NCBI RefSeq assembly: GCF_013141915.1
Contig: NZ_SROX01000006.1
Span: forward strand, 1 to 64,000
Source: Cupriavidus necator
GTDB lineage: Bacteria; Pseudomonadota; Gammaproteobacteria; Burkholderiales; Burkholderiaceae
Direction: 5' to 3'
DNA: 64,000 bases
Below are positions 16,892 to 53,047 of the stretch, one piece after another (position 1 is the first letter of the stretch; every line of letters starts with the position of its first letter). The notes beneath the pieces are model-generated. The model worked only from the letters and a program-made list of their open reading frames with translations. It was not told where the DNA came from and did not search any database. Position numbers and translations under genes: made by a program.

Positions 16892-17151
16892 TGAAAAGGA
16901 GAGACGTTGTTAATTGTTGGAATCTTAAGTGTCCGTTTTACGGGCCATCTCGGTCGTCGAGGATCGGAAACGGACTGGCTCAAACGTCGTCTACGGAAGC
17001 TCGCGGACCCACTCTGCGTCGGTGCCTGAGCGCGACCGCCTCCGGCCATGAACGGTCGTTTGCGATTTGATCCGCGAAGGACCGTTCACGAAGGAAGTAC
17101 CGACTGTCGAGGCCGGCCAAAAACGGCGAGCCTGTTTTCCGGAAAAACATC
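16892..17151. other. Gene-free stretch after the tctC truncation point
   Basis: No coding frame is convincing. It contains an inverted repeat GAACGGTC (17050-17057) and GACCGTTC (17080-17087) with a 22-nt spacer, too far apart for a strong hairpin. The sudden junction with the tctC remnant suggests an insertion or deletion boundary. Confidence 0.35.
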
Positions 17152-39152: not shown

Positions 39153-40181
39153 TCATTCCATCTGGAGCCCCACCGTCCTCGTCATGGCCTGGTAGGTCGG
39201 CCAGGTGCGGCCGATGAACCGCTGCAGCGCTTCACCGGTCAGGGGCGTGTCCTGGCTGCCCAACTGCTCGCGCACATTCCTGACCGCTTCCGATTCGGTG
39301 ACCGACTGCCGCACCAGCGTGGCGAGCGTCGAGACGATGCCGGCAGGCAGCCCGGCGGGCCCCAGCAGCATGTTGCACTCGGCCAGGTTGCTGAACACGG
39401 GGTCCGAGATGCCTTCGTCCGTCCAGGTCGGTATGCCGGGCAATTTGGCCGAACGCGGCCCGGAGATCACCAGCAGCGGCTTGAGCCCGCCGGACGCCAA
39501 CCCACCCGACATGCCGAGCAGCGAACCGGCGCCGATATCGATATGACCGGCCAGCAGGTCGCCGATCATCGCCCCCGTGCCCTTGTAGTTGATGATGTCG
39601 AGCTGGGCCCCGGTCAGCTTCTTCAACTGAGCCACCATCAATTGCCACCCCGAACCGATGCCGTAGTTGCCGACGCTGACCGGCCGCTTCTGCGCCAGTG
39701 CGATCAGTTCCTTGAAGGTGTTGGCGGGCAAACCCTTGGTCGCCACCATCACGCCGACGCCGGTACTCATCGACGCGACCGGCGTGAGCTCGCGCGAGGG
39801 GTCGATCGGCGGCTTCTTCAGCAGCACCGGCGCCTGCGCCAGCTGGCTGTGCAAGGTGCACAGCAGCGTGCACCCGTCGGGCTTTGCACGGGCCACTGCC
39901 TCGGCGGCGATCATGCCGATGCCGCCGGGCTTGTTTTCCACCACCACAGGCACCTTCAGCCTGGCGGAGAAGAACTCGGCGAACGCGCGCGCGGTGCTGT
40001 CGTTGGACGAGCCCGGCGCCTGCGCCGCAATGATCCGGATCGGGCGCGAGGGCCAGTCGCTGGCAAGCGACTGGCGGGGTAGCAGCCAGGGTAGCGCAGC
40101 CGCGGCGCCGAGCAATTGGCGTCGGCGCAGGTTGACGGTATCCGCGGGCAAGTCGTTGCCCGGACCAGGTATGGAATGCAT
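39153..40181 (-). CDS. Bug/TctC-family solute-binding protein, last gene of the CoA-ester operon
   Basis: A 342-aa receptor. The leader contains LRRRQLLGAAAALPWLLP, Tat-like, cleaved near QSLASD. The ligand loop reads AAQAPGSSNDSTARAF, replacing the common PGGxxD..AR; VENKPGGIG and NYKGTGAMIGDLLAGHI are kept. ATG 40181 with GGGAGAAGACCC upstream. It begins 95 bp after the malyl-CoA-lyase-like gene on the same strand and so closes the seven-gene operon starting at 46128; its ligand is probably the acid that operon degrades. Confidence 0.88.
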   Translation of the reverse strand: MHSIPGPGNDLPADTVNLRRRQLLGAAAALPWLLPRQSLASDWPSRPIRIIAAQAPGSSNDSTARAFAEFFSARLKVPVVVENKPGGIGMIAAEAVARAKPDGCTLLCTLHSQLAQAPVLLKKPPIDPSRELTPVASMSTGVGVMVATKGLPANTFKELIALAQKRPVSVGNYGIGSGWQLMVAQLKKLTGAQLDIINYKGTGAMIGDLLAGHIDIGAGSLLGMSGGLASGGLKPLLVISGPRSAKLPGIPTWTDEGISDPVFSNLAECNMLLGPAGLPAGIVSTLATLVRQSVTESEAVRNVREQLGSQDTPLTGEALQRFIGRTWPTYQAMTRTVGLQME

Positions 40182-40276
40182 GGGTCTTCTCCCGAATGCT
40201 TCAAGCCCGCGCCCGCACTGGAACGCGGGCACCCTGGCCGCGGCAATGCGCCACGGCCGGCACGGATGGCATGCCG

Positions 40277-41188
40277 TTACATGCCGATCAGGTCGGCGCG
40301 CTGCACCAGGTTCCTGACGATGCGCACCGAGGCGATGTCGATCATCTTGCCCTCGTACTGGACCGCGCCCAGGCCTTGCGACAGCGCTTCGTCATAGGCG
40401 CGGATCATGTCGCGGGCACGTGCCACGTCGGCAGCGGCGGGCGAGAAGACATCCTGCGCGAGTTCGACCTGCGACGGATGTATGGCCCACTTGCCAACCA
40501 TGCCGAGGATCATGGCGCGGCGCGCTTCCTCGCGGAACGCGTCGGGGCTGCGGAAGTCGGCGAACGGGCCGTCGACGGCATCGAGCCGGTGAGCGCGCGC
40601 GGCAATCGTCAGTCGCTGACGCTGGTAGTGCCAGATGTCGCCCGGATAACCTCCACTGCCGCCGATGTCGCGCATGGACACACCCTGGCTGGCCGAGTAG
40701 TCGCCCATGCCGAAGATCAGGCATTCCAGCCGCGGTGTCGACGCGGCGATGGCTTCGACGTTCATCATCGCCTCGACTTCCTCGATCAGCACGTCGATGC
40801 CGATGCGGTGGCGCAGGCCGAGCTTCTTTTCCATCATCGACAGCAGCTTGTCGACAAACTGCACGTCCGCCGCCGCCATGGCCTTGGGCAGCATGATGAC
40901 ATCGAGATTACGGCCGGCACCCTCGACCACTTCAATGATGTCCTCGTAGGCGTATTCGGTGGTCAGATCATTGATGCGCACGCAGCGCGTGGTGCGGCCC
41001 CAGTCGAGCCCGTTGAGAGCGTCGACGATCTTGCGCCGTGCCGGGCGCTTTTCGCTGGGTGCCACGGCGTCTTCCAGGTCGAGGAAGACGAAGTCCACGC
41101 CCATGGCCGCGGCCTTGGTCATCATCTTCTCGCTCGAGCCCGGCACGGACAGCTGGCAGCGGCGCAGCCGCTTGATCTTCTCCTGCAT
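40277..41188 (-). CDS. HpcH/HpaI (CitE-like) CoA-ester lyase, malyl-CoA lyase-like
   Basis: A 303-aa TIM-barrel lyase. RRCQLSVPGSSEKMMTKAAA, VDFVFLDLEDAVAPSEK (metal Asp/Glu), LNGLDWGRTTRCVRIN, RLECLIFGMGDYSASQG, GPFADFRSPDAF and GKWAIHPSQVELAQ closely follow malyl-CoA/beta-methylmalyl-CoA lyases, which split a 3-hydroxy-acyl-CoA into an oxoacid and a smaller acyl-CoA. ATG 41188 with CAGGAGACAACATC. It follows the CoA-transferase by 63 bp in the operon. The exact CoA ester (malyl, methylmalyl, citramalyl) cannot be told from sequence. Confidence 0.87.
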   Translation of the reverse strand: MQEKIKRLRRCQLSVPGSSEKMMTKAAAMGVDFVFLDLEDAVAPSEKRPARRKIVDALNGLDWGRTTRCVRINDLTTEYAYEDIIEVVEGAGRNLDVIMLPKAMAAADVQFVDKLLSMMEKKLGLRHRIGIDVLIEEVEAMMNVEAIAASTPRLECLIFGMGDYSASQGVSMRDIGGSGGYPGDIWHYQRQRLTIAARAHRLDAVDGPFADFRSPDAFREEARRAMILGMVGKWAIHPSQVELAQDVFSPAAADVARARDMIRAYDEALSQGLGAVQYEGKMIDIASVRIVRNLVQRADLIGM

Positions 41189-41251
41189 GATGTTGTCTCC
41201 TGCTTGTTGTATTCGTGTTGTCTGTCGCTTCGCCACGACGTGGCCCGATGC

Positions 41252-42493
41252 TTACTGCACCACGCCTTCCGCGCGCAGCGCGGCGATCTCGCCGGCATTG
41301 AAACCGAGGTCGGCGAGGGTACGGTCGGTGTGCTCGCCAATCATCGGCGCCCGCTGCCGTACGCCTCCAGGCGTGGCACTCATGCGCACCGGACTGCCGG
41401 CAATCGTCAGCGCGCGCGCAGCGCCGGGCTGCTCGGCCTCGACCAGCATCCCGCGGATGCGGAAATGCGGATCGTCGAAGATGTCGGCGGCATCGAACAC
41501 CGGCCCGAACGGCACCTCGCCGCCGAGCATTCCAGCGAGCGCGCGCTTGGTGTGACGCACGGTCCAGGCGGCGACCGCCTGCTCCACCTCGGCGCGGTGG
41601 CGAACGCGCAGCTCGTTGGTGGCAAAGCGCGGATCGTCGGTCCATGGCGGATGGCCCATCCGTTCCACCAGCAGCCGCCAGAAGCGGTCGTTCGGCACCC
41701 CCAGGCTGATATAACCGTCGCTGGCCGGGAACAGGCCGAACGGGCACAGCAGCGGATGACCGTTGCCCTCCGGTCCCGGCGCCTGTGCCGAGGCGCTGTA
41801 CTGGAACACCATGCGCTCGCACACGGCCAGCACGGCGTCGACCATGGCCACATCCACGAACTGGCCACGACCGGTGCGCTGCGCATGCCAGCACGCCGCC
41901 GCCACGCCATAGGCCAGGAACATGGCCGGCACGATATCGCCGACGCCCGGGCCGATCTTGGTCGGTGCGCCACCGCGCTGCGGACCGGTAATGCCCATGA
42001 TTCCGCCCATGGCCTGCGCGACGGGATCATAGGCGGGCCAGCCGGCGTAGGCGCTCGCGCCGCTGCGTGGGTCGCCGAAGCCGCGCAGCGCCGCGTACAC
42101 GAGTTTCGGGTTCTCCTCCGCGAGCCGTTCATAGCCCAGCCCGAAGCGCTCCATCACACCGGCGCGGTAGTTCTCGACCAGCACGTCGGCGCCGCGCACA
42201 AGCCGCAGCAGGGTCTCGCGCCCGGCGGGCTGTTTCAGGTCCAGCACCAGCGATTCCTTGTTGCGGTTGATGGAGCCGAAGTAGCCGCCAAACCCGCCTG
42301 CTTCCATCCGCAACGCGCCCTCGAGATGCGGGCCGTTGCGCCGGGTCTGGTCGCCCCCGGGCGGCTCGATCTTGATCACGCGCGCGCCCTGGTCGGCGAG
42401 CATCATCGAGCAATACGGGCCGGCCAGCATCTGGGTCAGGTCGAGCACCACCATGCCGTCGAGCGCGCCGCTGGGGTGGCCATCCGTGCTCAT
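41252..42493 (-). CDS. CaiB/BaiF-family (class III) CoA-transferase
   Basis: A 413-aa cytosolic CoA-transferase. VVLDLTQMLAGPYCSMMLAD and ARVIKIEPPGGDQTR open the domain, YDPVAQAMGGIMGITG follows, and the likely catalytic Asp is in GPGVGDIVPAMFLAYG; TGRGQFVDVAMVDAVL is typical. It would move CoA from a donor such as succinyl-CoA to a carboxylic acid. ATG 42493 overlaps the upstream MaoC stop (ATGA), showing tight coupling. It probably performs the activation step of the operon pathway. Confidence 0.92.
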   Translation of the reverse strand: MSTDGHPSGALDGMVVLDLTQMLAGPYCSMMLADQGARVIKIEPPGGDQTRRNGPHLEGALRMEAGGFGGYFGSINRNKESLVLDLKQPAGRETLLRLVRGADVLVENYRAGVMERFGLGYERLAEENPKLVYAALRGFGDPRSGASAYAGWPAYDPVAQAMGGIMGITGPQRGGAPTKIGPGVGDIVPAMFLAYGVAAACWHAQRTGRGQFVDVAMVDAVLAVCERMVFQYSASAQAPGPEGNGHPLLCPFGLFPASDGYISLGVPNDRFWRLLVERMGHPPWTDDPRFATNELRVRHRAEVEQAVAAWTVRHTKRALAGMLGGEVPFGPVFDAADIFDDPHFRIRGMLVEAEQPGAARALTIAGSPVRMSATPGGVRQRAPMIGEHTDRTLADLGFNAGEIAALRAEGVVQ

Positions 42494-42978
42494 CGTCCGC
42501 CCCAATGGCTCTTGCGCTTGATCAGCGCGGTGCGTTCCGCCTGCACGCACAGCTTGTCGTCCTGATTGACGCCGTAGTGGCGGAAGCGGACGATGCCGGC
42601 ATCCTCGCGATCGGCGTCTTCCTTGGCCAGCACCTCGGTGAAGGCGTAGAGCGTGTCGCCGTGGAACACCGGATGCGACAGGCGGATCTTGTCCAGCGTC
42701 AGTTCTTGCAGGCATTGCTCGGCGGTGTCCTGCGCGGCAAGCCCGAGCACCATCGACAGGTTGATCCCGCCGAAGACCACGCGTTGCGCGAAGATGCCGC
42801 CGGCGGCTCGCCGCATGGCGTCCTCGTTGAAGTGCCCTTCGGCCGTATTCATGACCATGTTGGTCAGCATGACGTTGTCCATCTCGGTCACCGTCTTGCC
42901 GCGCGCATGGCGGATCAGCATGCCCGGCTCGAAGTGCTCGAAGTACCCGTCGGAGCTGGTAAGTGCGCCGAGTTTCAT
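42490..42978 (-). CDS. MaoC-like hydratase, first copy
   Basis: A 162-aa hot-dog-fold hydratase. GKTVTEMDNVMLTNMVMNTA and the following EGHFNED give the hydratase-2 style active-site Asp/His neighbourhood; FGGINLSMVLGLAAQDT and HPVFHGDTLYAFTEVL complete the fold. It would add water to an enoyl-CoA such as mesaconyl- or itaconyl-CoA. Start ATG 42978 overlaps the acyl-CoA dehydrogenase stop (ATGA), and its own stop overlaps the CoA-transferase start. Confidence 0.88.
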   Translation of the reverse strand: MKLGALTSSDGYFEHFEPGMLIRHARGKTVTEMDNVMLTNMVMNTAEGHFNEDAMRRAAGGIFAQRVVFGGINLSMVLGLAAQDTAEQCLQELTLDKIRLSHPVFHGDTLYAFTEVLAKEDADREDAGIVRFRHYGVNQDDKLCVQAERTALIKRKSHWGGR

Positions 42979-44213
42979 GCCGCCTCCTTCGATTGCCGGA
43001 CCTGCCCCCCGAATGCGCGGCCGGCGATCATGCCCTCGACCTCGGACTTGCCGAGCAAGCTGTTGGCGATGATGCGTTGCTGGATCTCGGAAGTGCCTTC
43101 GAAAATCTTGGTGAGGCGTGCGTCGCGCCAGTAGCGCTCCACCGGGAACAGCCTGGTATAGCCCGCGCCGCCGAAGATCTGCAGCGCCTGCGAAGTCACG
43201 CGCTCAGCCATCTCCGAGGCGAAGTACTTCACCATCGACGCCTCCTTGTCGCAGCGGCGCCCGCTGTCGATCTCGTTGCAGACGAAGTAGAGCAACTGGC
43301 GCGCGGCCTCGACCTCGGTCGCCATGGTGGCGATCTTGAAGCGGATCGCCTGGTACTCGGCGATCGGCATGCCGAACTGGCGGCGTTCCAGCGAATAGGC
43401 GATCGCGTCTTCCAGCGCGCCCTGCGCCAGCCCGATCGCTCGGGCCGCCGTATGCGCGCGAGCGCCCTCCAGGCCCTTGGCCATCAGCAGGAAGGCCTTG
43501 CCCTCGGGGCCCATCAGGTTGCGCCTGGGCACGCGCACACCGTCGAGCGCCAGCTCGAAGGTCTTCCAGCCGAAATACCCGATCTTGGGGATCGGCGAGC
43601 CGGTCATGCCCGGCGGGAAGCCGCCCCGCTGCTTCTCGATCATGAAACACGAAATCCCTTCCCAGCGCTTGTCGGGCGATGGCGGCGCCGAGGTGCGCGC
43701 GAACAGGATCAGGTAGTCGGCGCCGTCGGCAAAGGTGCACCAGTATTTGTTGCCGGTCAGCACCCACTCATCGCCATCCGGCACGGCGCGGCACGAGATC
43801 GAGGCCAGGTCGGAACCGGTATCCGGCTCGGACAACGCGCTGGCATTGAGAAATTCGCCGCGCACCACGCGCGGCAGGTATTCGTGGCGCATGTCTTCGG
43901 GCATCGACTTCATGATCCAGCCGCCCTGTGCACGCGCCACGATCGACGCCACCGACATCCAGCCTCGCGACAGCTGCTCGCAGATCAGGCAATACTCGAA
44001 GATTCCCAGGCCGAGGCCGCCGTACTCCTCCGGGATGGTGATGCCGAAGTAGCCCATCTCGGCCATCTTGTCGCGCAGCGACATCGGGATCTCCGCATCC
44101 GGGCCGTCCAGCGCATTGGCAACCGGCAGCACCTCTTTCATCGTGAACTCGCGCGCCGCATCGCGGATCATGCAACGCGCTTCCGTCATGTACCCCAGAC
44201 CGTCTCCTGACAT
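42975..44213 (-). CDS. Acyl-CoA dehydrogenase of the CoA-ester operon
   Basis: A 412-aa FAD enzyme. Substrate-loop ALSEPDTGSDLASISCRA, GNKYWCTFADGADYLILFAR, and the C-terminal QIFGGAGYTRLFPVERYWRD with catalytic Glu in KIFEGTSEIQQRIIANSLLG, so all canonical residues are present. It would desaturate a saturated acyl-CoA for the MaoC hydratases. Methylsuccinyl-CoA dehydrogenases are longer (about 550 aa), so that assignment is not made. ATG 44213 is 2 nt beyond the upstream MaoC stop. Product may be an alpha,beta-unsaturated dicarboxyl-CoA. Confidence 0.92.
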   Translation of the reverse strand: MSGDGLGYMTEARCMIRDAAREFTMKEVLPVANALDGPDAEIPMSLRDKMAEMGYFGITIPEEYGGLGLGIFEYCLICEQLSRGWMSVASIVARAQGGWIMKSMPEDMRHEYLPRVVRGEFLNASALSEPDTGSDLASISCRAVPDGDEWVLTGNKYWCTFADGADYLILFARTSAPPSPDKRWEGISCFMIEKQRGGFPPGMTGSPIPKIGYFGWKTFELALDGVRVPRRNLMGPEGKAFLLMAKGLEGARAHTAARAIGLAQGALEDAIAYSLERRQFGMPIAEYQAIRFKIATMATEVEAARQLLYFVCNEIDSGRRCDKEASMVKYFASEMAERVTSQALQIFGGAGYTRLFPVERYWRDARLTKIFEGTSEIQQRIIANSLLGKSEVEGMIAGRAFGGQVRQSKEAA

Positions 44214-44215
44214 GC

Positions 44216-44752
44216 TTATCCCCTCATCCTGACCAGATTGGTACGCTTGAATTCGATCACCGCATCGCCCTGCTGATTGGTGCCGTGCGTGTGCCACGTA
44301 ACGATGCCGTAGCCGGGCCGGTTGCTGGCCGGCCTGCGCGACACCACGACGGAGCCGGCATAGAGCGTCTCGCCGGGGTAGACCGGGCGCAGGTAGGCCA
44401 GCTCGTCGACACCGAGAAAGGGACCGCCGCCCTCGGACAGGTCTTCCACCGACAATCCGAATACGGTGTTGAACACCAGCAGCGGATTGACCGGCACGCC
44501 GGGGTGGCCGTTAGCCCGCGCCACCGCCTCGTTGGTGTACTGCGGGTTGTAGTGCAGCGTCAGCACCGAGAACATTGTGTTGTCCGACACGGTGACGGTG
44601 CGGCCCCAGTGGTGGTTAAAGCGGCGGCCCGGCTCGAAATCCTCGTAGCGGTTGCCGCGGCCGCGCAGCCTGGCCTCGGCTTTCAGGCGCGCGACCACCG
44701 GATCGGTGGGGATCTCGGGGACGTGCCCGATGGCGGGTTGGGTGGATGTCAT
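44216..44752 (-). CDS. MaoC-like hydratase, second copy
   Basis: A 178-aa hot-dog hydratase distinct from the copy at 42490. It carries FNHHWGRTVTVSDNTMFSVL, LHYNPQYTNEA, GVPVNPLLVFNTVFGLSVED and YLRPVYPGETLYAGSVVV. The N-terminal 30 residues are an extra lead-in. Start ATG 44752 overlaps the MmgE/PrpD stop (ATGA). Two unlike MaoC proteins in one operon may form a heteromer or act on successive enoyl-CoA intermediates. Confidence 0.87.
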   Translation of the reverse strand: MTSTQPAIGHVPEIPTDPVVARLKAEARLRGRGNRYEDFEPGRRFNHHWGRTVTVSDNTMFSVLTLHYNPQYTNEAVARANGHPGVPVNPLLVFNTVFGLSVEDLSEGGGPFLGVDELAYLRPVYPGETLYAGSVVVSRRPASNRPGYGIVTWHTHGTNQQGDAVIEFKRTNLVRMRG

Positions 44753-46128
44753 TGCATTGCCTCAAACAAAGGTTCGACGGAAGGAAGCCGGTCGAGCGTG
44801 TCGACCACCGACACCAGCTTCGCGAACTTGGCCGCGCCGATGCGTGGCACGACGATGGCCTGCGCCTTGTCGACCAGGCGCCGCCACTGCATGGCGAGGT
44901 CCGTGGCCGGCACCGCGACATTGACCTGCGCGCGCAGCGTGCGGCCGTCGCGCGTCAGGATCTCGACCGTGGCGGCGTTGCGGTCCGGACCAGGCACCAC
45001 CTGCAGCGCGATCCGTTGCCGCGCCCTGACATAGCGCTGCGCGAGCGCGGTCTCTGGCGAATACAGCGCGAGCGACGCCGTGGGCGCGCCGTCCATCGCC
45101 AGCGCCGCCAGATGCTGGATCGCGAACTTGATCTCCAGGCCGGTCTGCGGGTTGGCGATATCGCACACGCCGCGATGCGGGCCGGACACGAAGATGGTCA
45201 TCGACTCGAGCGCGTCCAGGTCGACACGGTGCTCGCGGCAGGCCTGGCGCACGGCTTCGATGGTGGAGTGCGTGAGGTAGCAGGACGCATGGAATTTGAA
45301 CAGCGTGCGTTCGATCGCCATGCCTGCGCGGCCCTCGAAGGTCGCCGGAAACGCTGGCGCGGCGGGCGCCTGGGTGCGGCCGAAGCCTTGCTCGCACTCG
45401 ATGCCGCTGGCATTGGCAGTGAAGCCGCGCGCGGCCAGGCGGGCCGCGATCACACCGTTCATGGCGGCCTTGCCCGCGTGCAGCGGCTTGGCCATGGTGC
45501 CGAACATGCACTTGAGTCCGGCCGCCTGCGTCGCCGCGAGGCCGAGGGCGTTGGCGGTGCGCGCGGGGTCCAGACCAGCCAGCCGCGCACAGGCCGCTGC
45601 CGCGCCCAGCGTGCCGGTGGTGCCGGTAGGGTGCAGCCCGAGGCGATACTGCTCCGCACCCACCACCTCGCCGACCCGGCTTTCGACTTCATGCCCCAGG
45701 ATCAGCGCGCGCAGCAGATCCTTGCCGCTGGCGCCAGCCACCTGGGCCATAGCCAGCGCGGCGGGCGCCACCGGCACGGTCGGGTGCCCGTGCATAGCCG
45801 AGGCAACATCGTCAAAGTCCAGGGCATGGCCCGCGGCGCCGTTGATCAGCGCAGCCTGCGCCGGTTCCGCACGTAGCGGGCTGCCCACCAGCGCGCACGG
45901 CAGGTCGCGCAGGCCGGCATATTCGGCGACGAGCATTTCGACCAGCGGCTCGCGCGCGGCGGCGAGGGTCACCGCGATCCAGTCGAGCATGGCATGGCGC
46001 GCCCAGGCGAAGGCCGGCGCGCCGAGCTCGGCATCGTCAACCGTGCTGGTCCAGTCGGCCAGCGCCCGGGTGAAGCCGGTGCGGTCCGCGGCGTTGTCGA
46101 AGGTAAGTTCAGGTTCCACCGGAAGCAT
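44749..46128 (-). CDS. MmgE/PrpD family protein, first gene of the CoA-ester operon
   Basis: A 459-aa relative of 2-methylcitrate dehydratase. GAAGHALDFDDVASAMHGHP carries the helical-domain active-site DD and HGHP; LHPTGTTGTLGAAAACARLA, MFGTMAKPLHAGKAAMNGV and FKFHASCYLTHSTIEAV follow. I choose ATG 46128: the longer frame to 46227 would begin inside the operator palindrome and reads unlike the family. Possible roles are dehydration or cis-trans processing of a polycarboxylate or CoA-free acid ahead of activation. It is 66 bp downstream of the operator pair. Confidence 0.83.
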   Translation of the reverse strand: MLPVEPELTFDNAADRTGFTRALADWTSTVDDAELGAPAFAWARHAMLDWIAVTLAAAREPLVEMLVAEYAGLRDLPCALVGSPLRAEPAQAALINGAAGHALDFDDVASAMHGHPTVPVAPAALAMAQVAGASGKDLLRALILGHEVESRVGEVVGAEQYRLGLHPTGTTGTLGAAAACARLAGLDPARTANALGLAATQAAGLKCMFGTMAKPLHAGKAAMNGVIAARLAARGFTANASGIECEQGFGRTQAPAAPAFPATFEGRAGMAIERTLFKFHASCYLTHSTIEAVRQACREHRVDLDALESMTIFVSGPHRGVCDIANPQTGLEIKFAIQHLAALAMDGAPTASLALYSPETALAQRYVRARQRIALQVVPGPDRNAATVEILTRDGRTLRAQVNVAVPATDLAMQWRRLVDKAQAIVVPRIGAAKFAKLVSVVDTLDRLPSVEPLFEAMQ

Positions 46129-46193
46129 CGCCGCGTTGCCGGCGCCATGTTGTTGTCGATGGACCCAGTATTGGCGAACGCCGACGGGCGCGG

Positions 46194-46248
46194 CATCACA
46201 TATGTGATGAATCCCGGCCGCTGGCATCCATCACATATGTGATGGATG
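46194..46248. promoter_or_regulatory. Paired perfect palindromes, candidate operators
   Basis: CATCACATATGTGATG occurs at 46194-46209 and again at 46229-46244. The second copy is extended to a 24-bp perfect palindrome by CATC/GATG (46225-46248; half-site CATCCATCACAT). Centres are 35 bp apart, between three and four helical turns. They lie between the divergent MmgE/PrpD operon and the CitE-like gene at 46363. The nearby IclR and TetR genes are candidate binders; which one is not shown by sequence. Confidence 0.75.
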
Positions 46249-46362
46249 TGCGCGCGTGGGGGACCGAAACTTTCGTCCGTGGCCGTGCGCGGCGCCCAGT
46301 ACCGCGCATGGCCGCCCTATGCCGCCTTCGTCAACCTTTTCGCGTCCACGACGCCACCGCTC

Positions 46363-47265
46363 ATGACCATGACCCAGCCCGCACCCCGCCGCTCTGTGCT
46401 GTATGTGCCTGCCACCAATACCCGCGCCATCGAGAAGGCGCGCCACCTTCCCTGCGACGCCATCGTGTTCGACCTGGAAGACGCCGTGGCCCCGGCGATG
46501 AAAGCCCAGGCCCGGGATAACCTGTCCAGTGCGTTTGCCGCGCAGCCGTTCGCTGCGCATGAAACGGTGATCCGGGTCAACGCGCTGGCAACCACCGAGT
46601 TCGATGCCGATCTGCGCGTGGCCGCCACATGCGGGCCCGATGCCATCCTGCTCCCGAAGGTCGACACCGGTGCGGACCTGGAGCGCTTCGCCGCGGCCAT
46701 CGGCGCCATCGCCAACGGCCCGGCGCCCAGGTTATGGGCCATGATCGAAACGGCCGCCGCGATCCACCATATCGACGGCATATTGCAAGCCGGCCAGCGC
46801 CGGCAGGTGCAACTCGACTGCCTGGTGGTGGGCACCAATGACCTGGCCAAGGAAACCGGCGTCTATCCGGGCGACCATCGCGCGTACCTGCTGCCCTGGC
46901 TGATGGCGGTGGTGCTGGCGGCAAAGCGCCATGGCACGGACGTGCTCGACGGTGTGTGGAATGACTTTGGCGACCGCGCCGGCTTCGACAATGAAGTGCT
47001 GCAGTCGGTCAGGATGGGCTTTGACGGCAAGACGCTGATCCACCCGTCGCAGGTCGATCCGGCCAATGCGGCGTTCACGCCGTCAGACGCCGCCACTGCC
47101 GAGGCCCGGGCGATCGTCGCGGCCTTCGCGCGGCCCGAGCATGCCGCCGCGGGCGTGATCAACCTGGACGGGCGCATGGTCGAGCGCCTGCACCTGGAAC
47201 AAGCCACGCGCCTGCTGGCGCGGCTCGACGCCATCCGGGCGCGCAGGGAGCGGCCCGCCCACTGA
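46363..47265 (+). CDS. HpcH/HpaI (CitE-like) CoA-ester lyase, divergent copy
   Basis: A 300-aa CitE-type lyase: RRSVLYVPATNTRAIEKARH, AIVFDLEDAVAPAMK (metal Asp/Glu), ILLPKVDTGADLERFA, WAMIETAAAIHHIDGIL, CLVVGTNDLAKETGVYPGDH and GKTLIHPSQVDPANAAF. It resembles the stand-alone citramalyl/citrate lyase beta group more than the malyl-CoA type in the operon opposite. ATG 46363 (or 46369) follows a 115-nt leader below the palindromes and lacks a clear ribosome site. It converges with the IclR gene. Confidence 0.87.
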   Translation: MTMTQPAPRRSVLYVPATNTRAIEKARHLPCDAIVFDLEDAVAPAMKAQARDNLSSAFAAQPFAAHETVIRVNALATTEFDADLRVAATCGPDAILLPKVDTGADLERFAAAIGAIANGPAPRLWAMIETAAAIHHIDGILQAGQRRQVQLDCLVVGTNDLAKETGVYPGDHRAYLLPWLMAVVLAAKRHGTDVLDGVWNDFGDRAGFDNEVLQSVRMGFDGKTLIHPSQVDPANAAFTPSDAATAEARAIVAAFARPEHAAAGVINLDGRMVERLHLEQATRLLARLDAIRARRERPAH

Positions 47266-47281: not shown

Positions 47282-48019
47282 TCAGCAGTCCTGGGCCACG
47301 GCCAGCACCGCGGCCAGCAGCTTCTTGCGGCGCGCGTGCAGGCGCGCCACCGGGCCGCCGGTGCCGATGCCCAGCCACTGTCCGCGGATGGGTGTGGCCA
47401 TCAGCGTGGCAATCACGCCAGCCCCCGGCGTGGCCAGGCTGGCCGATTCGTAGTAGCCCTGGCGACGCGCCAGCGCGATCTCGCGCAGGATCTCGGCGGG
47501 TCGTGCCAGGGGCTCGCCGGCGGCCGCCTCGGCATTGTAGCGGCGCAGCAGGCGTCCGATCTGCTCGTCCTCCATCCGGCTCATCAGCATGATGCCGATC
47601 GCGGTGCGATGTATGGGCCGGAGAATGCCGGACGATACAGACAGGCGCAGCGCATGGCTGGATTCGATCACGGACAGGTATTGCAGCATGTTGCCGCTCT
47701 GGCGGCCCAACAGCACGGTCTCGCCGGTTTCGCTCGACAGGCGGCGCATGGCGTCGTGCACCGATGCGCCGGCGCCTTGCTTGCGCGTGGTCCAGCCGCA
47801 CAGGAAGGCGACCCGCACCGACGGGCAATAGGTGCGCAACTGCGCGTCGAACTCCATGTAGCCACGCGCGACCATGGTCCGCAGCAGCATCGAGACACTG
47901 GACTGCGGGATGCCGAGCCGCTCGGCGATCTCGCCGACGCGCAGCGGCCGGCGCACGCGCTCGAACAGTTCCAGCAGGTCGAACACGCGATTTGCCGACT
48001 TGACCATGCCGCTGTCCAT
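47282..48019 (-). CDS. IclR-family transcriptional regulator
   Basis: A 245-aa regulator. The winged HTH (LRVGEIAERLGIPQSSVSML, MVARGYMEFD) occupies about 5-70; the C-terminal effector domain includes SGILRPIHRTAIGIMLMSRM and ARRQGYYESASLATPGAGVI. Start ATG 48019. IclR proteins commonly control carboxylate degradation; the adjacent palindrome pair at 46194-46248, with the divergent lyase and CoA-ester operon, is a natural target. Repressor or activator status is unknown. Confidence 0.9.
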   Translation of the reverse strand: MDSGMVKSANRVFDLLELFERVRRPLRVGEIAERLGIPQSSVSMLLRTMVARGYMEFDAQLRTYCPSVRVAFLCGWTTRKQGAGASVHDAMRRLSSETGETVLLGRQSGNMLQYLSVIESSHALRLSVSSGILRPIHRTAIGIMLMSRMEDEQIGRLLRRYNAEAAAGEPLARPAEILREIALARRQGYYESASLATPGAGVIATLMATPIRGQWLGIGTGGPVARLHARRKKLLAAVLAVAQDC

Positions 48020-48061: not shown

Positions 48062-48670
48062 CTACAACAACCACTCCCCGATCAGCCGCAGGATTTCCGC
48101 CTTAACGGCGGCCGGGTCCATGGAGGCCCGGTTCAGGCGATGCACGGAGATACCGCGCAGCAGGCTCATCAGAATGAAGGCCGCGGATTTTGCATCGACG
48201 TCAGCGCGGATCTGCCCCAGAGCCTTGGCTTCGTTGATCTTGTACTCGACGTAGGCCATGTTCTTTTCATTGTAGTCGTGGACAAAGCCATGCAGCGGCG
48301 AGTCCGCCACGGACGAGTCGAGTACGATGAAGAACATCGCCCGGATACTGTTGACCGCGCTTTCCGGGCGCTGGGTGTAGGCGTCCACCAGCGAATAGAT
48401 GCCATGAATGCCGCTGGTATCGCTGCCATCCTTCTTGCGCCGCGCATTGAATTCACGCGACAGCTGTTCCAGGCACTCCTCCAGCAGCTTTTCCTTGGAG
48501 CCGAAGTGCGTGTGCGCCAGGCCGCGGCTATAGCCTGCCCTGGTGCCGACTTCATTCATGGTCAGCCCCGCCAGGCCTTTCTCGGAAATCAGCTCGATAG
48601 CGGCCTGCACCATGCGGCTGACGGACTCTTCGCGCCGTTGCTCCTGGGTGCGACTGGATTGCTGCTTCAT
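48062..48670 (-). CDS. TetR-family transcriptional regulator
   Basis: A 202-aa regulator. N-terminal HTH: RMVQAAIELISEKGLAGLTM, NEVGTRAGYSRGLAHTHFGS. The C-terminal ligand domain (TetR_C, BetI/AcrR style) follows with YSLVDAYTQRPESAVNSIRA. ATG 48670. It precedes the IclR gene on the same strand (42 bp gap) and lies downstream of the Bug/ECH/ACAD operon, for which the inverted repeat at 52971-52988 is a candidate binding site. Confidence 0.9.
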   Translation of the reverse strand: MKQQSSRTQEQRREESVSRMVQAAIELISEKGLAGLTMNEVGTRAGYSRGLAHTHFGSKEKLLEECLEQLSREFNARRKKDGSDTSGIHGIYSLVDAYTQRPESAVNSIRAMFFIVLDSSVADSPLHGFVHDYNEKNMAYVEYKINEAKALGQIRADVDAKSAAFILMSLLRGISVHRLNRASMDPAAVKAEILRLIGEWLL

Positions 48671-48881
48671 AGGTAGTGAATGTGATGCCGCCTGCGGTGG
48701 TTGGTGGTGTCGTCGTGCCTCGTGTCGACCAAAGATCCGGCTGGTTCAACGCGAATCGTGCCGTACCAGATTGTACCGAAGGGAAATGCGTGCTTTCCAG
48801 GCAGCGCTGCCCCGCCGAGCCGCGTGCAATGCCGGCTGCCGCGTGCGCAAGTTGCCGGCGCAGCGGTGCGGGCCCGGCGGC

Positions 48882-49844
48882 TCAGCCGGGCTGGATATTG
48901 GCCTTTTCCGCCACACGCTTGAAGCGCAGGTATTCCGCGCGCTGGAATTCGCCCAACTCGCCCAGCGCCTTGTTCAGGAAAGTGCCGGCACGCTTGGCCT
49001 GGTAGGCCTTTGCCTCTTCCGTCTTCTGCGCGGCGGAGATGGCTGCGGCAAGCTCGTTGAGCTTGTCCTGCGGGGTGCCGGCCTTCATCGAGAAAGATGA
49101 CCAGACGTAGGATTCGAAGTCTGTGTAGCCCAGTTCCTTCATGGTCGGGACATTGGGCAACAGCTTGTCGCGCACCCCGCCGGTGATGGCAAGCACGCGC
49201 AGCTTCTTGCCCTTTTCCATGGGAGCGATGCCAGTGATATCGTTCAGGCCGATGTCCAGCCGGTTGCCGATCACGTCCGTCACCATCGGCGCGCCGCCCT
49301 TGTAGGGCACCGGCGTGGTCTTGATGCCCGTCGCCTGCGCCAGCCACTCGCCCACCAGCCGGTAGCCTTCGGAATAGTTGCCTACCGAGATTGGCTTGCC
49401 GGTGGTCTTGTAGGCGGCCACCACATCGGCAATGGTGTGGTACGGCGAATCGTTGCCAGCCACGAAGGCGGCGGCCGAGATGCCCACACCGTGCAGCGGC
49501 ACCAGGTCCTTGAACGGGTCGTAACCCAGGTTCTTCACCATCACCGGATTGACCGCGATCAGCGAGTTGCTGCCCAGCAGGATGGTATTGCCGTCAGCCG
49601 GCTCCGCCAGCACGGTGCGCACGGCGATGAGACCGCTGGCGCCCGGCTTGTTCTCGACCACGATGGCGCGGCCCAGGGCCTTGCCAATCTGCTCCGCGTA
49701 AAAGCGCGCGCCCTCGTCCGAGCCACTGCCCGCCGTGAACGGCACGATCACACGAATCGCCTTGCCCTGCGCCCGCGCGATGCCGGGCAATGCCAGCGTT
49801 ACCGCGCCCGCCAGCAGGGTGGCGCCGAATTGTCTGCGTTGCAT
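48882..49844 (-). CDS. Bug/TctC-family solute-binding protein
   Basis: A 320-aa receptor starting MQRRQFGATLLAGAVTLALP; the RRQF pair suggests possible Tat export, cleaved near IARAQG. The ligand loop is IVPFTAGSGSDEGARFYAEQ instead of PGGxxD; VENKPGASG and PVPYKGGAPMVTDVIGNRL are typical. ATG 49844 with AACGGAGACAAAGAC. It follows the enoyl-CoA hydratase by 45 bp as the last gene of the operon begun at 52958. Confidence 0.89.
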   Translation of the reverse strand: MQRRQFGATLLAGAVTLALPGIARAQGKAIRVIVPFTAGSGSDEGARFYAEQIGKALGRAIVVENKPGASGLIAVRTVLAEPADGNTILLGSNSLIAVNPVMVKNLGYDPFKDLVPLHGVGISAAAFVAGNDSPYHTIADVVAAYKTTGKPISVGNYSEGYRLVGEWLAQATGIKTTPVPYKGGAPMVTDVIGNRLDIGLNDITGIAPMEKGKKLRVLAITGGVRDKLLPNVPTMKELGYTDFESYVWSSFSMKAGTPQDKLNELAAAISAAQKTEEAKAYQAKRAGTFLNKALGELGEFQRAEYLRFKRVAEKANIQPG

Positions 49845-49889
49845 GTCTTTGTCTCCGTTATCGATTGTCATGGCCTGCCCCGCAGGCGA

Positions 49890-50672
49890 TCAGTCCTCAA
49901 AGACCGGGAGGCGTCGTTCGGCCATGGCCTTCACACCCTCGGCAAGGTCCGGCCCGGCGAACTGGACCGCCTGCTCGGCGCTCTCGCGCGAGATAGCATT
50001 GCGGATATGGCTGAGCGAGTCGGCCTTCAAGGTGTGGCGGGTGGACTGCAGTGCCCGCGGCGACGAAGTGGCCAGTTCCCGCGCCAGTGCCAGCGCGGCG
50101 CCGCGTACCTCCGTCCTGGGCACGAGGAAGTCCACCAGGCCCATCTCCCGGGCGCGCGCCCCATCGACGCGGATGCCGGTGTAAAGCATCCATGCCGCCA
50201 TTTGCTTGCCGATCAGCGCGGGCAGCGTGTACGAAAGCGCAAACCCCGGATGAAAGCCGAGACGGTTGAAGTTGGCGGAAAAGCGCGCCTCGGTGCACGA
50301 CACGCGAAAATCCGCCGCCAGTGCCAGGCCCAGGCCACCACCGACTGCCGGCCCTTCGATCGCTGCCACGATCGGCTTGCCGAAGCTGAAAATGCGCAAG
50401 GCCTCGAGATAGATTGGATTGATGCGCGAGGCGCTGCGCGGTGCCGCGGCGCCGTCGCGCCGCGAAAAGTCCGCACCCGCGCAAAACGCGCTGCCGCCCG
50501 CTTGCAGCAGCACCGCGCGGCAGGTCTTGTCGGCCTGCAGCCGGTCCAGCTCGTCGGCAATGCGGGCAATCATGTCCACATCGAAAAAATTGTGCGGCGG
50601 GCGGTTCAGCTCGACGATAGCGACATGGCCGTCGCGTCGGCTCAGGATGACTTGGTCCGTCGTATCAGGCAT
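49890..50672 (-). CDS. Enoyl-CoA hydratase/isomerase (crotonase) family protein
   Basis: A 260-aa crotonase. Oxyanion-hole segments SAFCAGADFSRRDG and AAIEGPAVGGGLGLALAADF are present. At the two usual catalytic Glu sites the sequence reads AEARFSANFNRLGFHPGF-like (CTEARFSANFNRLGFHPG), where the second position is His rather than Glu, so hydratase activity is uncertain and isomerase, thioesterase or decarboxylase chemistry is possible. ATG 50672 overlaps the preceding dehydrogenase stop by 8 bp. Confidence 0.88.
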   Translation of the reverse strand: MPDTTDQVILSRRDGHVAIVELNRPPHNFFDVDMIARIADELDRLQADKTCRAVLLQAGGSAFCAGADFSRRDGAAAPRSASRINPIYLEALRIFSFGKPIVAAIEGPAVGGGLGLALAADFRVSCTEARFSANFNRLGFHPGFALSYTLPALIGKQMAAWMLYTGIRVDGARAREMGLVDFLVPRTEVRGAALALARELATSSPRALQSTRHTLKADSLSHIRNAISRESAEQAVQFAGPDLAEGVKAMAERRLPVFED

Positions 50673-51822
50673 GGGTTGCGTTCCTTTCTGCTTGCATCGA
50701 TTCGGCGTGCCGGGCCGGCGCGCCCGCCGCGCCCTCTGCGCACGGCAGGGTGCGCGCCGTCAGGTTCGGCCAGAACTGCTCGGAGCCGGCCTGGATGAAC
50801 GCCTGGCCCAGGCGCTCGGCCCATTCGGTGCTGGTGCCGGCCTCGGCGCGCCAGGCCCACAGGCGCCGGGTGGCGAAATTCAGCGGGTATTCGTAGGTAA
50901 AGCCAATGGCGCCATGGACCTGGTGCGCGATCGAGGCGCCGGTGCGCACCGCGTCGCTGGCCGTCACCTTGGCGACCGCTGCGCTGAATTCCGCCTGCGG
51001 CGCGCTGTGCTGGTGGATCGCTGGCAGGTCGCGCAGCGCGGTCGTGGCCGCCGCATAACTGCAGGCCACTTCGCCGGCAAGCACCGCCAGTTGCTGCTGG
51101 ATCGCCTGGTTCTTGCCGATGGGCTTGCCGAACTGTACGCGGTCCTTCACATACTGCACCGCCAGGTCCAGCGCGTAGTCCAGCGCGCCGGTCAGCTGCG
51201 CCGCAGTGGTGGCGGCGTAGCACACTTCCAGCGGCCGGCTTAGGCCTGCAATGCCAGCAGCCAGCGTATGAGAAACCGGAGCCTGATCCAGCACCACCGT
51301 ATCGGCCGGCAGCGATGCGGCATCGGCCTTGAACGCTATACGCACGCCGGGCCCCTTGGCATCCACCAGTGCAAGGTCGCCACCGGCCTCGACCACCAGC
51401 CATTGGGCATGGCGCGCCCACTTCACGGCGGTCATCGTGCCGGACAGGGTGGCCGGCTTGCCGCCCTCGCCGCCGGACAATACCAATGACCGCGTCTGCG
51501 CTCCCGCGGCGAGCGCGAACACGCCGTCGGCCGCCAGGTCCAGCCCGCCGCGCGATGCCAGGTACTGGCCCAGCACGGCCTGCGCCAGCGGTACCGGCGC
51601 CTGCGTGTAGCCAACCTGGTAGAACAGCGGCAATGCTTCCGGCCAGGACGCTTCGATCCCGCCGTGCGCCTCGCGGCACAGGATCTTGGTCATGCCGCTT
51701 TCGGCAATGGTTTGCCACAGCGCGCCGGCGAATGCGCCGGCCTCGACCGCCGTCAGCAGGTCGCGGTCCACCTCGTTGGCCAGCAGTCGCCTGACGGTTT
51801 CTCCAATCATGTTGTCGTTCAT
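50665..51822 (-). CDS. Acyl-CoA dehydrogenase, second subunit of a likely pair
   Basis: A 385-aa divergent ACAD-family protein. The core lacks the canonical EPxSGSD loop; the C-terminal domain is recognisable from YVKDRVQFGKPIGKNQAIQQ, HQVHGAIGFTYEYPLN and RRLWAWRAEAGTSTEW, with no EGT Glu. ATG 51822 overlaps the stop of the upstream ACAD (ATGA). Adjacent, coupled, unlike ACADs of about 380 aa each match the alpha2-beta2 heteromeric ACADs known from steroid side-chain degradation (family knowledge); this one would be the subunit without a full active site. Confidence 0.85.
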   Translation of the reverse strand: MNDNMIGETVRRLLANEVDRDLLTAVEAGAFAGALWQTIAESGMTKILCREAHGGIEASWPEALPLFYQVGYTQAPVPLAQAVLGQYLASRGGLDLAADGVFALAAGAQTRSLVLSGGEGGKPATLSGTMTAVKWARHAQWLVVEAGGDLALVDAKGPGVRIAFKADAASLPADTVVLDQAPVSHTLAAGIAGLSRPLEVCYAATTAAQLTGALDYALDLAVQYVKDRVQFGKPIGKNQAIQQQLAVLAGEVACSYAAATTALRDLPAIHQHSAPQAEFSAAVAKVTASDAVRTGASIAHQVHGAIGFTYEYPLNFATRRLWAWRAEAGTSTEWAERLGQAFIQAGSEQFWPNLTARTLPCAEGAAGAPARHAESMQAERNATHA

Positions 51823-52958
51823 CGCAGCCCCAGTCCTTTCGCAATAATCCCGCGCAAAATCTCTCTCGTGCCCCCGCGCAGCGAGAACGATGGCGCCGCC
51901 AGCGTGACCAGGTTCAGCACCTGGTCAAACTCGCTGCCGTCGCCCAGCCGGGCAGGAAACACCTCATACGCAATGTCGGGCAGTGACTGCTCCAGTAGCG
52001 CGCCCTGGTCCTTGACGATGGAGGCGGCCAGCGACGGGTCCTGGCCCTCGGCCAGCATCAGCGCGATGCCCTGCGACATCTGCCGCAAGGTGGCATAGCG
52101 CGCGATCACCTTGCCAAGCGCCACAGCCTGCTGAGGGTTGCCGGCATCGGCGGCATCGAGCATCTCCAGCAGCAACTGCGTGCTGCTCAGGAAGCGCTCC
52201 GCGCCGGAGCGCTCGTACTTCAGTTCGTTGATGACCTGGCTCCAGCCCTTGCCCTCTTCGCCGACGAGGTGGTCGTCGGGGACAAACACATCGTCGAGGA
52301 TCACCTCGTTGAAGATGCGTGTGCCCAGTTGCGACACGATCGGGCGCACGGTCACGCCCGGCCGGTCCATCTCGATGAAGATCTGGCTCATGCCGGCGTG
52401 GCGGTCATCGCCGCGTTCGCTGGTGCGCACCAGCGCCACCATGTAGTGCGCATGGTGGGCGCCCGAGGTCCATACCTTGCGGCCGTTGATCTTCCAGCCG
52501 CCTTCCACCCGGGTACCGCGGGTGCGGATGGAAGCCAGGTCGGAGCCCGAGTCCGGCTCGCTCATGCCGATGCAGATAAAGGCCTCGCCGCGGCGGATCT
52601 GCGGAATGATCTTCGGGGCAAGCTGGTCGCGGCTGTAGCGGATCAGCAGGGGACCCATCTGCCGGTCCGCGGCCCAGTGCGCGCCCATCGGCGCGCCCAC
52701 CGCCAGCAGCTCTTCGAGCATCACATAGCGCTCCAGCATGCTCTTGCCGCCGCCGCCGACCTCGGTCGGCCAGGTCATGCCGAGCCAGCCCTTTTCGCCC
52801 ATCTCTTTCGAGAAGACGGGATCCCGCCCGGCCCAGTTATGCGCGCGCTCGACGCGGGAATACCGGGTCATGTGCTCTTTGGCGAATGCTCTGACTTCCT
52901 CGCGCAGCGCCTCGCATTCCTGCGGCAAGTCGCCAGCCGCAATGTGCAACGTATCCAT
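51819..52958 (-). CDS. Acyl-CoA dehydrogenase, first subunit of a likely pair
   Basis: A 379-aa ACAD with a full substrate loop (CIGMSEPDSGSDLASIRTRG) and NGRKVWTSGAHHAHYMVALV. The EGT position reads RGGTREILRGIIAKGLGLR, lacking Glu, but YERSGAERFLSSTQLLLEML supplies a Glu at the isovaleryl-CoA-dehydrogenase-type position, a plausible alternative base. ATG 52958; the longer frame to 53057 crosses the divergent promoter. It heads the operon ACAD-ACAD-crotonase-Bug. Confidence 0.87.
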   Translation of the reverse strand: MDTLHIAAGDLPQECEALREEVRAFAKEHMTRYSRVERAHNWAGRDPVFSKEMGEKGWLGMTWPTEVGGGGKSMLERYVMLEELLAVGAPMGAHWAADRQMGPLLIRYSRDQLAPKIIPQIRRGEAFICIGMSEPDSGSDLASIRTRGTRVEGGWKINGRKVWTSGAHHAHYMVALVRTSERGDDRHAGMSQIFIEMDRPGVTVRPIVSQLGTRIFNEVILDDVFVPDDHLVGEEGKGWSQVINELKYERSGAERFLSSTQLLLEMLDAADAGNPQQAVALGKVIARYATLRQMSQGIALMLAEGQDPSLAASIVKDQGALLEQSLPDIAYEVFPARLGDGSEFDQVLNLVTLAAPSFSLRGGTREILRGIIAKGLGLR

Positions 52959-52970
52959 GCTTATCCTTAC

Positions 52971-52988
52971 TTGCTTGCGAACAAGCAA
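52971..52988. promoter_or_regulatory. Inverted repeat in the ACAD/CoA-transferase divergent region
   Basis: TTGCTTG-CGAA-CAAGCAA is a perfect 7-bp inverted repeat, placed 13 bp upstream of the ACAD start and 60 bp upstream of the divergent CoA-transferase start. Size and symmetry fit a TetR-type operator, and a TetR gene lies at 48062. Confidence 0.6.
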
Positions 52989-53047
52989 AACTCTATAGTG
53001 AATGCATCGAGTTCGCTCTAGGTAATTACGAGGAGAAGCAGTCCACC

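Follow-up and report, generated by a model that had tools for sequence, protein, structure and literature searches.

A window of 64,000 nucleotides of Cupriavidus necator DNA (positions 1 to 64,000 of contig NZ_SROX01000006.1, assembly GCF_013141915.1; contig C43 of the 6.97-Mb genome) contains an operon of seven minus-strand genes and one divergent gene that probably forms a catabolic module for a 2-substituted succinate. This acid, R-CH(COOH)-CH2-COOH with R being methyl or larger, would be broken down via its C1-CoA ester to glyoxylate and an acyl-CoA. A first-pass annotation had read the genes as encoding enzymes that activate, desaturate, hydrate and cleave a branched dicarboxylic acid, and this reading is supported and sharpened by the trees and active-site residues presented here. 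A description of this operon, or of its combination of C1-CoA enzymes, was not found in searches of the openly licensed literature of PubMed Central (PMC).

Gene content and organization

All eight annotated genes are open, with the order and strands originally claimed. By position, the minus-strand genes encode Bug, lyase A, CaiB, MaoC1, an acyl-CoA dehydrogenase (ACAD), MaoC2 and PrpD, and the divergent plus-strand gene encodes lyase B (Table 1). Their Pfam matches are TctC (Bug), HpcH_HpaI (both lyases), CoA_transf_3, MC_hydratase/MaoC (both MaoC proteins), Acyl-CoA_dh and MmgE_PrpD. Three junctions are 4-bp ATGA overlaps (prpD/maoC2, 44749-44752; acad/maoC1, 42975-42978; maoC1/caiB, 42490-42493), maoC2 and acad are spaced by 2 bp, and the gaps before lyase A and bug are 63 and 95 bp, given predicted starts that were picked by eye within the longest open reading frames (bug 40181, lyase A 41188, caiB 42493, acad 44213, prpD 46128, lyase B 46363). 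The closest named relatives of the operon are from Cupriavidus.

Table 1. Positions of the operon genes, predicted operators and adjoining regulatory gene in the window
Feature	Position	Strand	Basis
Bug-type periplasmic receptor, TctC family	39153..40181	-	PF03401, 127.8 bits
Lyase A, malyl-CoA/beta-methylmalyl-CoA-type, predicted beta-alkylmalyl-CoA lyase	40277..41188	-	structure relatives, tree, residues
CaiB, class III CoA-transferase, predicted succinyl-CoA:2-alkylsuccinate CoA-transferase	41252..42493	-	PF02515
MaoC1, putative catalytic half of split mesaconyl-CoA-type hydratase	42490..42978	-	PF19315 positions 224-353
ACAD, predicted 2-alkylsuccinyl-CoA dehydrogenase	42975..44213	-	6es9 relative, residues
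MaoC2, putative N-terminal-half subunit of split hydratase	44216..44752	-	PF19315 positions 14-167
PrpD, MmgE/PrpD family, predicted epimerase of free 2-substituted succinate	44749..46128	-	PF03972/PF19305
Palindrome ATCACATATGTGAT copy 1, predicted operator	46195..46208, within CATCACATATGTGATG 46194-46209		genome motif search
Palindrome CATCCATCACATATGTGATGGATG copy 2, predicted operator	46225..46248, 14-mer 46230-46243		genome motif search
Lyase B, CitE-like, Mcl2-type predicted malyl-CoA thioesterase	46363..47265	+	own clade, Glu for Asp299
IclR-type gene, predicted cognate regulator	47282..48019	-	homology and sequence

The two lyases

A phylogeny of the kind that the first-pass annotation had suggested was built from 96 rows, after removal of near-identical rows and with a tool warning of long branches among the outgroups. 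Neither lyase grouped with citrate lyase beta or with unrelated aldolases, which rules out both identities. The lyase A family forms a 40-row clade (support 100/99) nested within a 74-row malyl-CoA lyase clade (100/98) that holds the solved structures 5ugr, 4l9y and 4l7z, and is separate from human CLYBL and from the genome's own citramalyl-CoA-lyase homologue. In agreement with this placement, the best solved relatives of lyase A are the malyl-CoA/beta-methylmalyl-CoA lyases 5ugr (279 bits) and 4l9y (263 bits), the next scoring 157.

Residues were compared in an alignment of 139 lyase rows, into which some genes had entered twice; homologues that had in-frame stops or were poorly covered were excluded from the lyase comparisons. 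Arg76, Glu141, Asp168, Asp299 and the glyoxylate-lining Pro and Trp are kept in 49/49 rows of the lyase A family, and lyase A also keeps Glu44 and Asp45 of Mcl1. The position of Ala167, which is reported as 100% conserved in two malyl-CoA lyase clusters and lies near the end of the propionyl group (PMC3832036), is Ala in 40 Mcl1-type rows and Gly in all 49 family rows; in lyase A this Gly belongs to the motif GMGDY. Gly also occurs there in six rows from outside the family (L021-L024, L064 and L065), and part of the loop adjacent to this position is missing in lyase A and in several unlinked relatives. Because of the change from Ala167 to Gly, lyase A is filed as a putative sister type of Mcl1 rather than as Mcl1 itself.

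Lyase B falls in a clade of its own (17 rows, 100/98) and carries Glu instead of the catalytic Asp299 in 23/23 operon rows. Since this exception was seen in the cluster of the Rhodobacter sphaeroides malyl-CoA thioesterase (PMC3832036), we read lyase B as putatively Mcl2-like. The same Glu is found in 13 of 28 homologue rows from 14 genomes with Mcl1-like lyases, and those 13 are the nearest to lyase B (40-47% identity). Thus, the paired lyases of the earlier annotation resolve, by tree and residues, into one lyase of putative Mcl1 type and one thioesterase-like protein of putative Mcl2 type.

A predicted hydratase in two subunits

The two MaoC proteins had been regarded as a duplication; the evidence points instead to a single split enzyme. 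MaoC2 and MaoC1 cover consecutive parts of the mesaconyl-CoA hydratase model PF19315 (positions 14-167 and 224-353), and the motif NTAxxHF, equivalent to the pair Asn226/His231 proposed to be catalytic in the Methylorubrum enzyme (PMC10164722), is present in 42/42 MaoC1 rows and in 0/40 MaoC2 rows. In a quick 22-row tree, MaoC2 joins the N-terminal halves of mesaconyl-CoA hydratases (Shimodaira–Hasegawa-like approximate likelihood ratio test, SH-aLRT, 92) and MaoC1 joins the C-terminal halves on the opposite side. The window MaoC2 keeps the equivalents of Phe71, Ser79 and Arg142 and has lost that of Asn85, and MaoC1 keeps those of Asn226, His231 and Gly249, with Tyr248 replaced by Phe. The architecture of mesaconyl-CoA hydratase, with two hot-dog halves and the catalytic pair in the C-terminal half, is therefore present as two proteins, and MaoC2 and MaoC1 are best read as two halves of one mesaconyl-CoA-type hydratase in which only MaoC1 has the catalytic Asn and His. 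The model halves, the one-sided motif and the tree rule out two independent MaoC enzymes. Neither half reaches the 560-bit cut-off of the NCBIfam haloarchaeal mesaconyl-CoA hydratase model (123.3 and 75.4 bits).

A locus on contig C11 (L072, 611000-630900) encodes a 487-aa protein (6795-8258, minus strand) that appears to be a mesaconyl-CoA-type hydratase in fused form, its C-terminal part being similar, by eye, to a CitE lid domain. On its plus strand (14898-17307) are an ACAD (64%) and a CaiB (57%) paralogous to those of the operon.

The dehydrogenase, CoA-transferase and PrpD

The best solved relative of ACAD is 6es9 (302.6 bits, the next scoring 278.5). We identify this chain as Paracoccus methylsuccinyl-CoA dehydrogenase (PdMCD) because all nine residue numbers given for that enzyme in PMC5798300 fit it. 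The carboxylate-binding and catalytic residues Ser248, Arg252, Thr418, Arg421 and Glu535 are kept in 43/43 operon ACAD rows; a control short-chain ACAD has Glu535 alone of the five, and the contig C6 homologue of methylsuccinyl-C4-CoA dehydrogenase has 0/5, in an alignment that is less sure at 28% identity. Position 285 in the methyl pocket, Ala in PdMCD, varies among Ser, Ala, Thr, Val, Phe and Tyr. At 412 aa, ACAD aligns to residues 169-550 of 6es9 only and is without the N-terminal extension of about 170 residues. ACAD is predicted to work like a methylsuccinyl-C1-CoA dehydrogenase of the PdMCD type, yet it is not classed as one because Arg376 is lost and position 285 is variable.

The model for succinyl-CoA:mesaconate CoA-transferase, NF041294, has 46 matches in the genome, of which the window CaiB is second (448.4 bits), after a contig C11 paralogue (468.8 bits) and ahead of a third at 334. 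The GNxH loop and the catalytic-Asp region K-[IV]-G-P-G-[VI]-G-D are each present in 39/40 CaiB rows. For the Haloarcula enzyme, mesaconyl-C1-CoA is reported as the only product, and methylsuccinate is also accepted (PMC5592240).

Six PrpD residues (His85, Asp88, His99, Tyr145, His150 and Lys198 in iminodisuccinate epimerase, IDS, numbering) are found in 35/35 operon rows; a seventh, Lys266, is present, but shifted by one alignment column. The Tyr is the proposed extra catalytic residue of methylsuccinate isomerase and iminodisuccinate epimerase (PMC12290011). PrpD shares the His/Asp(Glu)/His/Tyr/His/Lys set with both of these enzymes, to which it is merely 33.0% and 30.5% identical, respectively. 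The epimerase Tyr is kept in the MmgE/PrpD homologues of contigs C6 and C38; in the 2-methylcitrate dehydratase of the genome (889 bits, cut-off 575) its place is taken by Asn. With the residue set of succinate-type epimerases, PrpD is predicted to have epimerase activity. Another MmgE/PrpD protein of the window (12167-13585, minus strand) probably catalyses a different reaction, because Ala replaces the epimerase Tyr.

Conservation and mobility

Named genomes were scanned with an alignment of six lyase A rows, which yielded 42 loci; duplicates were retained (two genomes occur twice, as L018/L028 and L019/L030). The five core genes (MaoC2, ACAD, MaoC1, CaiB and lyase A) are all present in 35/42 of these loci, from alpha-, beta- and gammaproteobacteria, and because of this recurrence the grouping is more than chance. 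The seven incomplete loci comprise two truncated by contig ends (L025 and L039), one without a CaiB of at least 50% identity (L062) and four in which the lyase stands without the remaining core genes (L061, L064, L065 and L066). The full-core loci come from, among other named hosts, Cupriavidus, Paraburkholderia, Variovorax, Hydrogenophaga, Polaromonas, Xenophilus, Acidovorax, Sulfitobacter, Pseudooceanicola, Bradyrhizobium and Pseudomonas, and the carriers found in the scan include Variovorax sp. Root473 and Paraburkholderia unamae. Of the 35, 27 have PrpD, 18 lyase B, 21 an IclR relative (34% identity or more) and 13 a close Bug. The importer varies by host, with Bug in many betaproteobacteria, a tripartite ATP-independent periplasmic (TRAP) transporter in several alphaproteobacteria and a major facilitator superfamily (MFS) protein plus porin in Paraburkholderia; that other classes of acid transporter stand in for Bug was counted in favour of the proposed pathway. 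In surveys that include the window's own genome in their counts, ACAD at 92% identity or more occurs in 14/60 genomes of the genus, and lyase A at 56% identity or more in only 6/398 genomes of Pseudomonadota; of these 398 genomes, 61 have a relative of lyase A that reaches E 1e-50 or better.

Several copies are carried on plasmids. The 24-kb plasmid p5 of Paracoccus sediminicola, typed as conjugative, holds a cassette (L134, 6579-19832) of LysR, three-gene TRAP transporter, PrpD, MaoC, ACAD, MaoC, CoA transferase and lyase genes flanked by two copies of the same ISPam3 transposase, a possible composite transposon, and the same gene order is found on a Pseudosulfitobacter plasmid and on Tistrella pTM1. 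An archaeal plasmid from Halomarina has PrpD, lyase A (57%), MaoC2, ACAD, MaoC1 and CaiB inside about 7 kb, and a Rhodococcus plasmid has relatives of all core genes scattered across about 13 kb. Judged from these comparisons, the operon is coherent, widely conserved and mobile.

Contig C45 of the window's genome (L075, 126000-145900, at 8619-9458) holds a degraded partial duplicate of the operon, in which Bug keeps 97% identity over 217 aa, lyase A is reduced to 62 aa (94%) and CaiB to scraps with a stop. Within about 10 kb of this remnant are a methylisocitrate-lyase-like gene and an aconitase-family large subunit. In the window itself, a second acyl-CoA cluster adjoins the operon (48062-54235; labels assigned by sequence and homology) with a TetR-type regulator, Bug, an enoyl-CoA-hydratase-like gene, two ACAD-like genes and a divergent CaiB, and parts of it also adjoin the operon in loci L016, L017 and L026.

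A predicted operator

The perfect palindrome ATCACATATGTGAT occurs twice in the gap between prpD and lyase B, and a search of the whole genome that allowed up to one mismatch found no other site. It was found in 20/31 prpD-upstream regions examined, all 20 from Burkholderiales-type loci, with two genomes counted twice; L037 is among the 11 regions without it, though its lyase B lies outside the region examined. The gene beyond lyase B is one that we take to be of IclR type, from homology and its sequence, and an IclR-type gene adjoining the operon is conserved alongside it in many loci. We infer that the IclR-type protein acts at the paired palindromes, from which it would govern both transcripts.

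Proposed pathway and points against it

The reactions, their CoA regiochemistry and the substrate are inferred from the genes and residues described above. Uptake of the acid would be aided by the Bug receptor, after which PrpD would interconvert the enantiomers of the free acid and CaiB would transfer CoA from succinyl-CoA onto C1, the carboxyl adjoining the side chain. ACAD would oxidise the ester to 2-alkylfumaryl-C1-CoA (mesaconyl-C1-CoA if R is methyl), the two-subunit MaoC2/MaoC1 hydratase would form beta-alkylmalyl-CoA, and lyase A would cleave this to glyoxylate and an acyl-CoA (propionyl-CoA if R is methyl). Lyase B may hydrolyse malyl-CoA, a possible lyase A product of glyoxylate and acetyl-CoA, to malate.

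A number of observations weigh against this proposal. None of the 46 genome matches to NF041294, the window CaiB included, reaches its cut-off of 700 bits, and the CaiB that outscores it on contig C11 lies at a locus where no lyase of the lyase A clade was found; the ACAD paralogue of that locus carries all five carboxylate-binding and catalytic residues. In 43/43 operon ACAD rows, Arg376 is replaced by Phe (His in two rows) and Glu380 by Thr, and the identity of ACAD to 6es9 (43.6%) is barely above that to short-chain ACAD (40.2%). MaoC1 alone matches the RipB/Ich model better (92.9 bits) than the Mch models (76.3 and 75.4). PrpD is absent from 8/35 full-core loci and lyase B from 17/35, so neither is essential. 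Finally, the neighbours of operon copies point to no single substrate or precursor: L062/L063 have a glucose-methanol-choline (GMC) oxidoreductase, an aldehyde dehydrogenase, a short-chain dehydrogenase/reductase (SDR) and a PF12806 ACAD, lyase A is followed by an SDR in five loci and by an alpha/beta hydrolase in two, the Tistrella plasmid has biotin-carboxylase and carboxyltransferase genes, and L042 has a SnoaL-like protein and a hydrolase.

Two plasmid copies have more extensive surroundings. On a Variovorax boronicumulans plasmid (L151, 387-23056) the operon adjoins SDRs, a branched-chain-type ATP-binding cassette transporter and beta-oxidation genes, with an FAD oxidoreductase that matches pentalenolactone D synthase (658.6 bits, below the cut-off of 1100), as if fed by the breakdown of a cyclic compound. 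On the plasmid of Halomarina sp. PSR21 (L149, 1240-18741) it adjoins genes resembling homoaconitase large subunit, methylisocitrate lyase, isocitrate/isopropylmalate dehydrogenase and tricarballylate dehydrogenase.

Which acid may be degraded

The skeleton of the substrate, a succinate with its side chain next to the thioester, is better fixed than the side chain itself. The side chain may be larger than methyl, because the lyase has Gly for Ala, the dehydrogenase has lost an Arg, a second cluster coexists on contig C6 and a second, Mcl1-like lyase (43-47%) is held by 5/7 alphaproteobacterial carriers examined. None of these hints is decisive, since a mobile cassette has to supply the whole route itself, regardless of what its host has. 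We therefore put forward tentatively, at rather under an even chance, that the operon represents an undescribed pathway, spread horizontally among proteobacteria, Rhodococcus and a haloarchaeon, for 2-alkylsuccinates of either configuration whose side chains exceed methyl. A C1-CoA ester would be converted by a heteromeric mesaconyl-CoA-type hydratase to beta-alkylmalyl-CoA, and by a malyl-CoA lyase with an enlarged pocket to glyoxylate and the matching acyl-CoA.

Next in rank, and quite possible although we do not favour it, is a sub-case of the 2-substituted succinate proposal in which the substrate is methylsuccinate (and mesaconate) and the operon provides an additional route, by C1-CoA esters, to propionyl-CoA and glyoxylate, next to the known C4-CoA route that ends in acetyl-CoA and pyruvate. 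All of the enzymes resemble known enzymes of methylsuccinyl-, mesaconyl- and beta-methylmalyl-CoA, methylsuccinate is accepted by the Haloarcula transferase (PMC5592240), and the genome holds a 2-methylcitrate dehydratase for the use of propionyl-CoA. Against this, a route for methylsuccinate appears to be present already. The itaconate cluster of C. necator is reported to degrade methylsuccinate via its C4-CoA ester, with an MmgE/PrpD protein as (S)-(R)-methylsuccinate isomerase, an ACAD as methylsuccinyl-C4-CoA dehydrogenase and a Bug gene nearby, and the authors of that work describe methylsuccinyl-C1-CoA as a dead end in this species (PMC12290011, 2025). Contig C6 of the window's genome carries consecutive lyase, PrpD, CaiB and ACAD genes, with 30-34% identity to their counterparts in the window (tblastn), which we take to be a homologue of this published cluster. 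The Gly in every lyase A clade row, at a position invariant in malyl-CoA lyases (PMC3832036), the absence of Arg376 and Glu380 from the dehydrogenase, its variable position 285 and the Mcl1-like lyases of the alphaproteobacterial carriers also argue against methyl.

A charged side chain, as in tricarballylate (R = CH2COOH), from which the lyase would yield succinyl-CoA and glyoxylate, is improbable. It is suggested by the Halomarina and Rhodococcus loci only, where the tricarballylate-dehydrogenase-like gene of the former scores 451.6 bits (cut-off 369) and an MFS gene of the latter weakly matches the tricarballylate symporter (167.7 of 445 bits), and the Bug receptor family is named for tricarboxylates. 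However, tricarballylate has no stereocentre and would leave the epimerase unneeded, and the dehydrogenase has lost an Arg instead of gaining one. Sulfosuccinate and phenyl-, benzyl- and isopropylsuccinate, candidates from general knowledge, were set aside for want of gene evidence.

Relationship to known pathways

The first-pass annotation held that neither itaconate degradation nor the methylsuccinate/mesaconate part of the ethylmalonyl-CoA pathway matches the operon exactly, and the lyase clade, the identities of 28-34% and the lack of a crotonyl-CoA carboxylase/reductase bear this out. PrpD and Bug, which it had counted among the anomalies, lose that standing, as the published C. necator cluster also has an MmgE/PrpD isomerase, with a Bug gene close by (PMC12290011). 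That cluster, found in C. necator and Pseudomonas aeruginosa (Ict, Ich, Ccl, Mcd and Msi), has in common with the operon a succinyl-CoA-dependent class III CoA-transferase, an ACAD, a MaoC-type hydratase, a CitE-family lyase, an MmgE/PrpD epimerase and, in C. necator, the nearby Bug, but it works through C4-CoA esters and citramalyl-CoA to acetyl-CoA and pyruvate (PMC12290011). The operon differs in the C1-type carboxylate residues of its ACAD, its split Mch-type hydratase and its malyl-CoA-type lyase. Lyase A does not match Ccl, as it belongs to another clade and scores 162.3 of 375 bits with the RipC model. Low identity together with the lyase and ACAD residues rules out orthology, and the operon is apparently a second, non-orthologous set for the other CoA regiochemistry. 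It is very unlikely that the operon is instead a variant of the itaconate/citramalate pathway itself: the gene classes, including PrpD, ACAD and Bug, are those of the itaconate cluster, and both lyases (162 and 140 of 375 bits) and MaoC give sub-cut-off matches to RipC and RipB, respectively, but lyase A groups with malyl-CoA lyases rather than with the C6 citramalyl-CoA-lyase homologue and keeps the glyoxylate-lining Pro and Trp that this homologue lacks, and the genome has its separate itaconate-type cluster.

The second half of the ethylmalonyl-CoA pathway (methylsuccinyl-C1-CoA dehydrogenase, mesaconyl-CoA hydratase, Mcl1 and Mcl2) comprises the same C1-CoA reactions that we predict for the operon, with related enzymes and a Glu-type thioesterase-like protein in both. 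The operon departs from it in having a CoA-transferase, an epimerase and a receptor for an outside acid, a two-gene hydratase, an ACAD without the 170-residue N-terminal extension and Gly for the lyase Ala167. That the Mcd-, Mch-, Mcl1- and Mcl2-like genes serve acetate assimilation by this pathway, which their company recalls, is the least credible of the alternatives: the best crotonyl-CoA carboxylase/reductase match in the genome scores 93.9 bits against a cut-off of 378.55, which rules the pathway out, the CoA-transferase, epimerase and receptor genes indicate an external acid, and the lyase A clade is distinct from Mcl1. The haloarchaeal methylaspartate cycle (Mct, Mch and Mcl) also has a profile-related CoA-transferase followed by a hydratase and a glyoxylate-releasing lyase, but there mesaconate is generated internally, a single two-domain protein serves as hydratase, and the account of the cycle in PMC5592240, so far as it bears on these enzymes, describes no dehydrogenase or epimerase of the operon's kind.

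Implications

The pathway of the operon is best called a variant that joins two known modules. If our reading is correct, epimerisation of a free acid with CoA transfer, and cleavage of the Mcd-Mch-Mcl type, which are known separately, would be combined in one catabolic route by which soil, plant-associated and marine bacteria degrade a class of branched dicarboxylic acids. Many genes that are labelled just 'CoA ester lyase', 'MmgE/PrpD family protein' or 'MaoC family dehydratase' would thereby gain a function that can be tested. Synthetic pathways that use this chemistry would also gain new components in a lyase that accepts larger acyl groups together with glyoxylate and in a dehydrogenase acting on larger alkylsuccinyl-CoA esters.

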